Assembly: GCA_000017645.1 (NCBI GenBank)
Contig: CP000781.1
Location: 4,823,501-4,887,500 of the forward strand
DNA: 64,000 bases
Direction of reading: 5' to 3'
DNA from: Xanthobacter autotrophicus Py2
GTDB lineage: Bacteria > Pseudomonadota > Alphaproteobacteria > Rhizobiales > Xanthobacteraceae
Shown: positions 10,715 to 18,177 of the stretch, in pieces
Layout of the letters: every line of letters begins with the position of its first letter
How positions within the stretch are numbered: position 1 is the stretch's first letter
Program-made: the position numbers and the translations under genes
The notes under the pieces: model-generated
Told to the model about the DNA's origin: nothing
The model's database searches: none
Seen by the model: only the letters and a program-made list of their open reading frames with translations

Positions 10715-10740
10715 GGAACCAACACCCCGGGCTACCCGTT
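10715..10740 (+). promoter_or_regulatory. EcfG (general stress sigma factor) promoter for the ku operon
   Basis: GGAAC (10715-10719), a 17-nt spacer and CGTT (10737-10740) match the alphaproteobacterial EcfG/RpoE2 consensus. The predicted transcript start would be near 10747, leaving a leader of about 28 nt before the ku1 ATG. In Sinorhizobium meliloti some ku genes are reported to be in the RpoE2 regulon, which agrees. The rest of 10480-10774 holds no convincing gene. Confidence 0.7.
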
Positions 10741-10774
10741 CGTTCAACGCGGTGCTTGTGTCGGAGTGTGCAGG

Positions 10775-11674
10775 ATGGCGACAGCGCGGGCCAATTGGAA
10801 AGGTTTCATCAGGTTCGGAGACGTCACGTTCGCGGTGGCGCTCTACACCGCCGCGTCCTCCTCCGAGCGCATTGCCTTCAACACGCTCAATCGGTCGACC
10901 GGAAATCGCGTGCGTCGGGAATTCGTCGACAGCGAGACCGGACAACCGGTGGAGCGGGACGACCAGGTCAAGGGGTACGAGATCGACAATGGCGGCTATG
11001 TCGTGCTCGAACCCGACGAAGTCGCCTCCGCCGTGCCGGATAGCGACAAGACGCTGCGGATCGAGGCCTTCGTTCCCTGCGATGAGATCGACGACGTCTA
11101 TTTCGACAAGCCGTATTATCTCGCGCCCGACAAAATGGGCGCCGACGCCTTCAAGCTGCTGCGCGACGGTCTGCGGCAGGCCAAGGTCGCCGCCCTGGCG
11201 CGAACGGTCCTGTTCCGGCGCCTGCGGACAGTCCTGATCCGTCCCCATGGCAAGGGACTGGTCGGAACGACGCTGAACTTCGATTACGAAGTGCGGTCTT
11301 CCGCCGAGGCCTTCGAGGGTCTGCCGGAGATGAAGATCGAAGGAGAGATGCTGGACCTCGCCAAGCACATCATCAATACCAAGAAGGGCACGTTCGACGC
11401 CAAGGCCTTCGATGATCGCTATGAGGCCGCCGTCGCCGAACTCGTGAAGGCGAAGATCGAAGGCCGGACCCTGCCGAAAAGGAAGGCGCCCCCGCCCTCG
11501 AAGCCGAGTGACCTGTTGGAGGCACTGCGCGAGAGTGCTGGCGTGACTTCGTCCCGCAAGCCAAGGCGCACTGCCGCAAAGGCCGACGCCGGCGAGAGCC
11601 CCCCGAAGGCGAAGCGTGCCTCCCGGACCAAAACCTCCCGCTCTAAAACATCACGCTCCAAGCGAGCCGCCTGA
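10775..11674 (+). CDS. ku1: Ku end-binding protein, paralog 1
   Basis: A DNA-end-binding ring protein for non-homologous end joining, 299 residues. The Ku core (about residues 5-255) opens WKGFIRFGDVTFAVALYTA and includes the FNTLNR and PDKMG-type segments. The C-terminal tail (about 255-299) is Lys/Ser/Arg-rich with repeated SRSKTSRSK, the sort of basic extension known from some Ku proteins. ATG 10775 starts exactly before the domain; the upstream open frame reads through promoter sequence. ku2 follows after 12 nt. The numbering ku1/ku2 is mine. Confidence 0.93.
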   Translation: MATARANWKGFIRFGDVTFAVALYTAASSSERIAFNTLNRSTGNRVRREFVDSETGQPVERDDQVKGYEIDNGGYVVLEPDEVASAVPDSDKTLRIEAFVPCDEIDDVYFDKPYYLAPDKMGADAFKLLRDGLRQAKVAALARTVLFRRLRTVLIRPHGKGLVGTTLNFDYEVRSSAEAFEGLPEMKIEGEMLDLAKHIINTKKGTFDAKAFDDRYEAAVAELVKAKIEGRTLPKRKAPPPSKPSDLLEALRESAGVTSSRKPRRTAAKADAGESPPKAKRASRTKTSRSKTSRSKRAA

Positions 11675-11686
11675 TCGGAGGCCGTC

Positions 11687-16095: not shown

Positions 16096-16159
16096 GGTTG
16101 ACCTCGGGCCAGAAAGCACATCAGTCCTCGACCGGAAATGTCGGGGAGAAGAAGTGGCG

Positions 16160-18142
16160 TCACTCCGGCCCCGCCGGCTTCGAGCGCGTCCGACGCCCCA
16201 ACAATTGCCCCAGGAGCCGGGGCTTTGATTTATGCGGAATGAGGGCGATGTCGGTGATGAGCTTTGCCCCGCCCTTGCGCCGCTCCAGCACGATCTTGCG
16301 GCTGTGGAAGGCCTCGAGTTCGGCACGGTGCGCGACGCTGATGATGGTCGCGTCGGGAAGCGTCGAGGTGACGAGCTCCATCATGTTGTCCTGACCCTTG
16401 TCGTCGAGGGCCGAAGTGGCCTCGTCCAGAACGATGATGTCGGGCCGGTGCAGCAGCAGGCGGGCGAAGGCCAGCCGCTGCTTCTCGCCGCCAGACAGAG
16501 TCTGGTCCCAGGGGGCATCCTCCTCGATCTTCTCCTTCAGGTGATCGAGCCCGACCTTGTGCAGGGCGTCGCAGATTTCTTCAGGGGTCCAGTCTTCGGC
16601 CGCGCCCGGATAGGTGGTTGCCCGGCGCAGCGTTCCCGAGGGCACATACGGTTTCTGCGGGAGCATGAAGAGGCGGGCGTCGGCATGGAAATTGACGCTG
16701 CCGCTGCCCCACGGCCAAAGCCCGGCGATGGCGCGCACCAGCGTGCTCTTGCCGCTGCCCGAGGCGCCGGCCACCAGCAGCCGCTCGCCCGGCTCGATGA
16801 CGACCTCGGTCTGGTCCACCACCGCGGTGCCGTCGTCGAGGGTCACCGAGAGGTCGCGCAGGGTCAGCATGGCATCACCGTCCGTCTCGCCCCGCCGGAT
16901 GCGGCCGATGCCGTCCCCGCTCTCCGCCCGCTCCAGCCCGTCAAGGGACATCATCAGGGAGGCGATGCGGCGGGCGCAGGCATTCCAGTCCGCAAGACGC
17001 GGATAATTATCCACCAGCCAACCGAACGCCGTCTGCACGATGGTGAAGGCAGACGCCGCCTGCATCACCTCGCCGAGCGACATCTGGCCTTCGAGATATT
17101 TCGGCGCGCACAGGAGCAGGGGCACCACGGGCGCGATCAGGCTGGAGCCCTGCGACACCAGCGTGGTGCGCATATACTGCCCGGCGAGGCGCGCCCATTG
17201 GCGGAGCACGCCGGAAAAGGTGCTGTTGATGCCCTCCCGTTCCTCATGCTCGCCGCCGAGCAGGGCGATGCTCTCGCCATTCTCGCGCACGCGGGTCAGC
17301 ATGTAGCGATAGTCCGCCTCCGCCTGGTTCTTCTCCTCGGACACCTCGACGAAGCGCCGACCGATGACCAGGATCGAGCCCGAGGCAATCAGCGCATAGA
17401 GCACCGCCGCCACCACCAGGAAGCCGGGAATGGTGATATCGGCCCCGCCGAGCTTCAGGGTCAGCGCGCCGCCGATGGTCCATAGCACCACGATGAATGT
17501 CGCCGCCGACAGGAAAGCGGCGGTCACCCCGGCGAGAAAATCGATCGGCGATTCAGTGGCGACCCGCAGGTCCTCGGCGATGCGATATTCGGGGTTCTTG
17601 TGGTCGCCGCTGACGAGGTTCAGCTGATAGTAGCGGCCGGCAGCGAGCCAGCGCGTCACTACGGCGTTCGTCAGCCAGGCGCGCCAGCGCCGCTGCATGC
17701 CCATGCGCGCATAGACCTGCGCCACGCCCAGCGCCACACTGCCGATGGCCAGGGGAAAGAAAACTGCGGTGAGATAGAACACGGTGGCGGCATCGCGCTT
17801 CTCGATGCCGTCGAAGATCGACCTGTTCCAGACGTTGATGGCATACTGGACGCCGACATTGGCAACGATCAGCAGCAGCAGTCCGATGGTAAATACCCAC
17901 GCCAGGCGATCCCCCTTGGCGCCCCAGTAACCCCGCGCACTGATCCAGAAGCGGGTCAGCAGGTAGGATTTGCGCAGGCGCTCTATTTCTTCAGGGGCGA
18001 GCGCGGGATCCGGCTCGATGGCCGCGGGCGGAGGCGGTTCGACGGGGTGACCATCCTCCGCGATCACGCTGTCGAGTTCGGATTCGACAGGCAAGGTTGT
18101 TTCATCGGATGGGCGAGGCCTGGCCTCAGCGGTCGTCGTCAT
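16160..18142 (-). CDS. SbmA/BacA-like ABC transporter, fused permease-ATPase (YddA/BclA type)
   Basis: 660 residues. A proline-rich, acidic N-terminal tail (1-55) precedes a membrane domain of the SbmA/BacA/ABC_membrane_2 type (about 60-390, with the EADYRYMLTRVRENGESIA segment). An ABC ATPase follows: Walker A GASGSGKST (459-467), signature LSGGEKQR (549-556), Walker B IIVLDEATSALD. Relatives such as Bradyrhizobium BclA import peptides and matter for NCR-peptide tolerance in nodules; the substrate here is unknown. An EcfG-type promoter ends only 9 nt before the ATG, so the message would be nearly leaderless, or the true start lies inside (a GTG at codon 26 is possible). Confidence 0.9.
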   Translation of the reverse strand: MTTTAEARPRPSDETTLPVESELDSVIAEDGHPVEPPPPAAIEPDPALAPEEIERLRKSYLLTRFWISARGYWGAKGDRLAWVFTIGLLLLIVANVGVQYAINVWNRSIFDGIEKRDAATVFYLTAVFFPLAIGSVALGVAQVYARMGMQRRWRAWLTNAVVTRWLAAGRYYQLNLVSGDHKNPEYRIAEDLRVATESPIDFLAGVTAAFLSAATFIVVLWTIGGALTLKLGGADITIPGFLVVAAVLYALIASGSILVIGRRFVEVSEEKNQAEADYRYMLTRVRENGESIALLGGEHEEREGINSTFSGVLRQWARLAGQYMRTTLVSQGSSLIAPVVPLLLCAPKYLEGQMSLGEVMQAASAFTIVQTAFGWLVDNYPRLADWNACARRIASLMMSLDGLERAESGDGIGRIRRGETDGDAMLTLRDLSVTLDDGTAVVDQTEVVIEPGERLLVAGASGSGKSTLVRAIAGLWPWGSGSVNFHADARLFMLPQKPYVPSGTLRRATTYPGAAEDWTPEEICDALHKVGLDHLKEKIEEDAPWDQTLSGGEKQRLAFARLLLHRPDIIVLDEATSALDDKGQDNMMELVTSTLPDATIISVAHRAELEAFHSRKIVLERRKGGAKLITDIALIPHKSKPRLLGQLLGRRTRSKPAGPE

Positions 18143-18151
18143 GACCGCATC

Positions 18152-18177
18152 AACGGTCCAGAAAAACGAAATGTTCC
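18152..18177 (-). promoter_or_regulatory. EcfG promoter for the ABC transporter-ligD unit
   Basis: Reading leftward, GGAAC (18177-18173), a 17-nt spacer and CGTT (18155-18152) match the EcfG consensus exactly. The same layout and spacing precede ku1. The predicted transcript start is about 3-4 nt before the annotated ATG of the transporter. Confidence 0.65.

Follow-up and report, generated by a model that had tools for sequence, protein, structure and literature searches.

A probably acquired, rhizobial-type Ku–LigD end-joining cassette at a tRNA-Lys gene of Xanthobacter autotrophicus Py2, with EcfG-type sites before both of its arms

The subject of this analysis is a 64,000-nt stretch of Xanthobacter autotrophicus Py2 DNA (contig CP000781.1, positions 4,823,501 to 4,887,500; hereafter the window, to which coordinates refer), and in particular an inserted island within it that carries genes for bacterial non-homologous end joining (NHEJ). 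The island (10,678–18,299, no strand) has approximate boundaries, and its flanks align with congeners on both sides. It is probably a horizontally acquired, rhizobial-type NHEJ cassette of 7.6 kb, located at the 3' end of a tRNA-Lys gene and placed under general-stress control. An earlier sequence-only reading had described the genes and their promoter motifs, but not the insertion of the whole set.

The left arm, on the forward strand, contains ku1 (10,775–11,674) and ku2 (11,687–12,496). Both products possess the Ku core domain of the bacterial Ku–LigD pathway (PF02735, 157.8 and 155.5 bits; TIGR02772, 274.1 and 283.3 bits, respectively). The right arm, on the reverse strand, contains ligD (13,435–16,095), the 886-residue product of which has the phosphoesterase, ligase, and polymerase domains according to Pfam and NCBIfam matches. 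From these domains, the island is predicted to encode a bacterial Ku–LigD NHEJ set. Upstream of ligD on the same strand, separated by a 64-nt gap, lies the gene of a 660-residue ATP-binding cassette (ABC) half-transporter of the SbmA/BacA superfamily with a fused ATPase (16,160–18,142). The ku1–ku2 and ABC–ligD arms are convergent, and two small open reading frames (ORFs), sp1 and sp2, sit between them. The domain matches and coordinates thus confirm two Ku genes facing LigD, as first described. Exact GGAAC-N17-CGTT sites of the EcfG type precede both arms, and a motif scan places them where the sequence-only reading had them, at 10,715–10,740 (forward) before ku1 and at 18,177–18,152 (reverse) before ABC–ligD. 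That reading had passed over sp1, sp2, and the short distance of 9 nt between the CGTT of the second site and the ABC start codon.

The right edge of the island abuts the 3' end of tRNA-Lys(TTT) (18,304–18,379, reverse). Ten congener stretches cover this place; both flanks align in three of them, and the tRNA side only in the other seven. In L172, the flanks align at 92–95% and about 234 bp replaces window 10,678–18,299. In L174, about 0.9 kb stands in place of the island. L175 has about 145 bp in place of window 9,312–18,302. None of the ten stretches contains Ku, LigD, or this ABC gene (ABC matches there reach at most 55 bits), and the transporter is absent at 1e-150 from all 13 other genomes of the genus. 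Next to tRNA-Lys, the congeners examined (L172–L181) differ in their DNA, as in an insertion hotspot.

Several observations weigh against acquisition. The two junction regions share no direct repeat of 9 bp or more, so attachment repeats are rejected, and no integrase is found among the island genes scanned. The GC content in 1-kb bins is only slightly lower in the island (0.60–0.68) than around it (0.66–0.74). In addition, protein search returns ABC relatives at 88–91% that are named Xanthobacter sp. Together with a cluster identical to the transporter on an 812-kb contig (protein search), these relatives indicate that other Xanthobacter, beyond the genomes searched, have at least the gene and perhaps the island. 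They would also suit an ancestral island of the genus that the sampled congeners have since lost, as would an sp2 relative named Xanthobacter versatilis and the wide distribution of Ku and LigD in the family (LigD in 125 of the 149 genomes). However, the transporter is missing from the 13 genomes, L172, L174, and L175 have short or dissimilar sequence between the flanks, and five congener LigDs group apart in a clade with deep divisions. We therefore consider ancestry unlikely.

That clade comes from a tree of 60 LigD loci (the first of the file that were usable), the five congeners, L243 (described below), and the window, with family-genome LigDs mostly left out. The rows nearest the LigD of the window are Rhizobiales bacterium 32-66-11 (83%) and Mesorhizobium sp. 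WSM4311; the congener LigDs are 44–51% identical to it. A similar gene order is found on plasmid pMLb of Mesorhizobium japonicum MAFF303099 (L182), which has 78.7% DNA identity over 58% of the island, comprising ku1–ku2 and ligD. It also has convergent ku-ku and ligD arms with GGAAC-N18/19-TT on both (6 such matches in 16.5 kb). It differs from the island in that it is plasmid-borne, has no ABC gene of this kind beside the set, and keeps a GGAAC site for ligD itself. No source plasmid of the complete island was found, as none of 732 matching plasmid records covers 80% of it in one place, and the sp1/sp2 region has no plasmid match.

To the extent of our searches, the island holds the only Ku–LigD system of the genome; the two Ku matches and the one LigD match at 1e-80 all lie in it. 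The five congeners carry a different ku–ligD locus. Four of them show a second Ku; in L309, the locus is close to a contig end. The genome of the window keeps the neighbourhood of that locus (L313, C1:3890000–3908000), but without the ligD–ku stretch present in L308 and L309 and without the second ku present in L308. A GGAAC-N19-TT site is left upstream of the missing locus (L313:12134, reverse). This absence reflects either loss in this strain or gain in the congeners. LigD is likewise missing at 1e-80 from G113, another congener and the genome from which L172 was taken. In the congener loci, which are unrelated to the island (L308–L312), GGAAC-N18/19-TT sites lie about 440–590 nt before the Ku genes.

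We considered the number of EcfG-type motifs as evidence for the promoters and rejected it. GGAAC-N16-19-CGTT matches the window only at the two sites described, but 1.42 matches are expected and 40 of 100 window shuffles reach two. Genome-wide, the strict N16-18 motif has 97 matches and is rarer than its backwards control, which has 155. Since these counts are at or below chance, they prove nothing. Position is better evidence: when the 100 nt upstream of each arm were mononucleotide-shuffled 200,000 times, a site was present in 139 and 117 of the shuffles, respectively. Conservation is the strongest evidence, and position and conservation together make the predicted sites credible.

For ku1, 46 relatives remained after those with less than 55% identity, a match start beyond residue 6, or an upstream shorter than 120 nt were dropped. 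In 45 of these, an equivalent GGAAC lies 48–71 nt before the mapped start (rows mapped from residue 5 are slightly shifted). The relaxed motif GGAAC-N18/19-TT is likewise found upstream in 45 of the 46, compared with 66 of 4,394 random 120-mers. The comparison with related genomes thus upholds the motif at ku1 in its relaxed form. Strict CGTT occurs in only two of the 46, indicating that the ku1 site of the window is nearer the consensus than those of its relatives. Many rhizobial ku1 promoters (L043–L103, within 90 nt of the gene) also have a near-palindrome, e.g. GATTC-N4-GAATC, that spans the -10 region, and, ahead of GGAAC, a GATTC/GACTC pair. This pattern points tentatively to a second regulator and is not seen in the window.

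For the transporter, we compared 52 ABC loci, consisting of 38 best-score stretches (20 from the family and 18 from the order), L243, L245, and 12 loci from the 27 plasmid records at E ≤ 1e-150. The stretches reach about 6–10 kb to each side, and several are cut by contig ends. In 39 of the 52, G[GAC]AAC-N16/17-CGTT ends 8–10 nt before an in-frame ATG, and the 9-nt gap of the window falls within this range. Five altered motifs at the same geometry give no match in the 52 loci, and the site itself occurs in none of them at gaps of 0–3, 4–7, 11–14, or 15–18 nt; it occurs at 20–30 nt in two loci and at 31–40 nt in one. Thirteen loci lack the fixed geometry (L146, L151, L153, L154, L222, L224, L229, L230, L231, L245, L282, L283, and L284, the last cut off at a contig end).

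The sites could instead be chance matches or inactive remnants, and other promoters could give ku and ligD basal expression. The counts in the window and the genome accord with this, and three further observations tell against functional sites: strict CGTT is as rare in ku1 relatives as stated above and occurs in 8 of 106 ligD upstreams; a control spacing, GGAAC-N28/29-TT, is found in 11 of the 46 ku1 upstreams; and the strict motif upstream of ligD is found on the opposite strand in 12 of 110 loci, compared with 9 of 110 on the coding strand. The opposite-strand motifs may reflect divergent neighbours. However, chance does not account for the positional conservation in ku1 and ABC relatives, and a sigma-70 scan of 10,600–18,400 gives only one weak site (18,294–18,266), compared with 0.6 in shuffles. 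Chance or inactive sites are accordingly unlikely.

The signal is weaker for ligD than for ku1. The LigD set has 110 loci, 80 from titled records and 30 from family genomes, one of which (L114) is the window's own locus; its 109 rows give 106 distinct upstreams, own included. The relaxed GGAAC-N18/19-TT is found in 47 of the 106. In the two nearest relatives, L034 and L037, it lies at -67 and -69. In the window, no GGAAC or G[AC]AAC is present within 300 nt upstream of ligD. A close-upstream GGAAC-N16/17-CGTT or relaxed site, the mark of an EcfG regulon, is thus conserved in relatives of the set, less strongly at ligD.

Expression of LigD from the site at 18,177 would require read-through from ABC into ligD, which is assumed and counts as a further weakness of the proposed stress-controlled cassette. 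Alternatively, the site drives the transporter alone, ligD is a chance neighbour expressed independently, and the two arms are not one module. Consistent with this alternative, no NHEJ gene lies within the fetched stretch in 50 of the 52 ABC loci, and the 64-nt gap holds a weak 5-pair terminator-like stem (16,134–16,122). However, the scan that gave this stem has 6 such stems in total, compared with 4.9 in shuffles, ligD has no GGAAC-type site nearby, and L243 (genome G395) also has ABC before ligD on one strand with a divergent Ku. We judge independent expression doubtful, although it is the most probable of the alternatives weighed here.

The pairing of the transporter with LigD, which had been called unusual, is so in this sample. 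The gene adjoins ligD in one of the 52 loci, L243, and only Ku is near it in one more, L145. At least one other genome among the matches listed therefore has the ABC–ligD order, which rejects uniqueness; one locus in 52 likewise rejects the order as common. In L243, the ABC and LigD are 71% identical to those of the window and sites precede all three units, with GAAAC-N16-CGTT 9 nt before the ABC ATG and GGAAC-N18/19-TT before ligD and Ku. Unlike the window, L243 has one Ku found, 56% identical to ku2, and a site belonging to ligD itself. The transporter has orthologues in 27 of 397 genomes of the order, own included, at 1e-200. Because no NHEJ gene lies in the fetched stretches of the other 50 loci, the transporter gene is apparently of the EcfG type independently of NHEJ, to which it became joined here. 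The suggestion of a wider stress module is thus weaker, and a link of the transporter to repair would be hypothetical.

The fixed distance between site and ATG predicts a near-leaderless mRNA for the transporter family. With a transcription start about 7 nt downstream of CGTT, the distance that the earlier note assumed, the predicted leader of the transporter is 0–4 nt. In S. meliloti, 171 leaderless transcripts have been mapped (PMC3616915), and among EcfG-regulated genes of S. melonis the distances from motif to predicted start include 2, 8, and 10 nt (PMC6599016, Table 1), so short leaders under EcfG have precedent. What is notable in the transporter family is the conservation of the short leader, not the short leader itself. 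Our literature search on leaderless messages and EcfG found no paper with the word "leaderless" among the matches listed.

The label "BacA-like" for the transporter holds at the superfamily level and not beyond it. Besides ABC_membrane_2 (PF06472) and ABC_tran (PF00005), the protein matches SbmA_BacA (PF05992) with 61.8 bits against a cut-off of 24, which places it in the SbmA/BacA superfamily. Its best solved relative is 6tqe, followed by ABCD-type chains, and its best NCBIfam match is a fatty-acyl transporter model, far below the cut-off. S. meliloti ExsE, sought in 100 kb of pSymB, was not found there. Transporters of the BclA, ExsE, and Bradyrhizobium homologous clade have been described (PMC12003926); they share the PF05992 superfamily with that of the window, and the available part of that source does not mention NHEJ.

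The control system that such sites require in order to act appears complete in the genome. NepR is present, as is PhyR, whose gene is preceded by an exact site and adjoins that of an HWE/HisKA_2 kinase. An EcfG-like extracytoplasmic function (ECF) sigma ORF lies about 3 kb from PhyR, beyond the kinase; the label EcfG was given by eye among 22 ECF-model matches. Exact sites also precede otsB and an 88-residue ORF lying before nepR. The two stretches that hold these genes have four exact sites each, compared with 0.13 and 0.10 in shuffles. Elsewhere in the genome, sigma-factor and motif matches at C1 about 259–274 kb are mirrored at 2948–2964 kb with equal scores or letters, which suggests a large inverted duplication. 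One EcfG-like match is present in five identical copies (C1:85390, 2257509, 2529546, 3611735, and C2:93894), probably inside a repeated mobile element.

Stress-inducible NHEJ is already known. A 2019 study by Dupuy is said to have found NHEJ of Sinorhizobium meliloti to be RpoE2/EcfG-controlled and stress-inducible; that species reportedly has several ku/ligD loci, whereas the island has a single set, with ligD placed behind a transporter gene. The genes mlr9624, mlr9623, and mll9625 are presumably the pMLb NHEJ genes, which we equate by tag number and order; the record shows other tags. Heat induction of these three genes has been reported (PMC3989490). The EcfG regulon includes ku–ligD in Sphingopyxis granuli (PMC7083833) and a Ku gene, with the GGAAC motif shown, in Sphingomonas melonis (PMC6599016). 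These NHEJ genes resemble the island prediction in being EcfG-dependent, and differ from the island in that the available parts of both sources show no linked transporter. Sequence conservation and the published dependence in these two Sphingomonadales lend good support to the proposal that both arms would be under common EcfG control, as predicted at the outset.

Two features are less usual here: the set is inserted into the chromosome beside a tRNA gene, and its ligD lies behind a transporter gene and lacks its own GGAAC site. With the absent congener-type locus and the fixed promoter-to-ATG distance, these are the variant parts of the island. A 2020 survey that relied on composition reported no NHEJ among the horizontally acquired regions of any bacterial chromosome (PMC7719229). 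No paper on this Xanthobacter island was found among the matches listed.

The remaining features lie between the arms, all on the forward strand. The 79-residue hydrophilic product of sp1 (12,631–12,870) has one relative in protein search (79%) and no match in the NCBIfam scan. The 150-residue hydrophilic product of sp2 (12,964–13,416) also has one relative (91%), the X. versatilis protein noted above, and no Pfam or NCBIfam match. A hairpin 3' of ku2 (12,562–12,596; fold z-score -3.86) doubles as GAAAC-N16-CGTT on both strands (12,566–12,590 and 12,592–12,568, motif scan), and is either a promoter or an RNA structure. A terminator-like hairpin with TTTT after sp1 (12,889–12,918) was read by eye and not flagged by the terminator scan.

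In the mechanism that we propose, general stress would free EcfG through PhyR and NepR, the established route of release in the general stress response. EcfG would then transcribe ku1–ku2 from the site at 10,715 and ABC–ligD from the site at 18,177, together, and expression of LigD would apparently require read-through out of the transporter gene, the message of which would be leaderless or nearly so. Ku binds broken ends and LigD processes and seals them, as established in NHEJ biochemistry; here they would do so in stressed or non-growing cells. More tentatively, stress-wired NHEJ may be a moving chromosomal cassette able to replace a resident system, in which the fixed, near-leaderless EcfG promoter of the transporter now governs LigD as well and the transporter is a repair partner, not a bystander; we hold this as a possibility of less than even weight. 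The ABC–ligD junction, found in two genomes distant within the order, would then perhaps have been made twice, and the transporter could aid repair through, for example, altered traffic of peptides or lipids.

The island would thus represent a case of chromosomal NHEJ transfer that an empty site supports and that composition would scarcely reveal. One sigma factor, two promoters, and one NHEJ system would make it a clean test case of whether end joining is stress-wired by design. For the transporter family, the fixed distance of 8–10 nt predicts near-leaderless stress messages.

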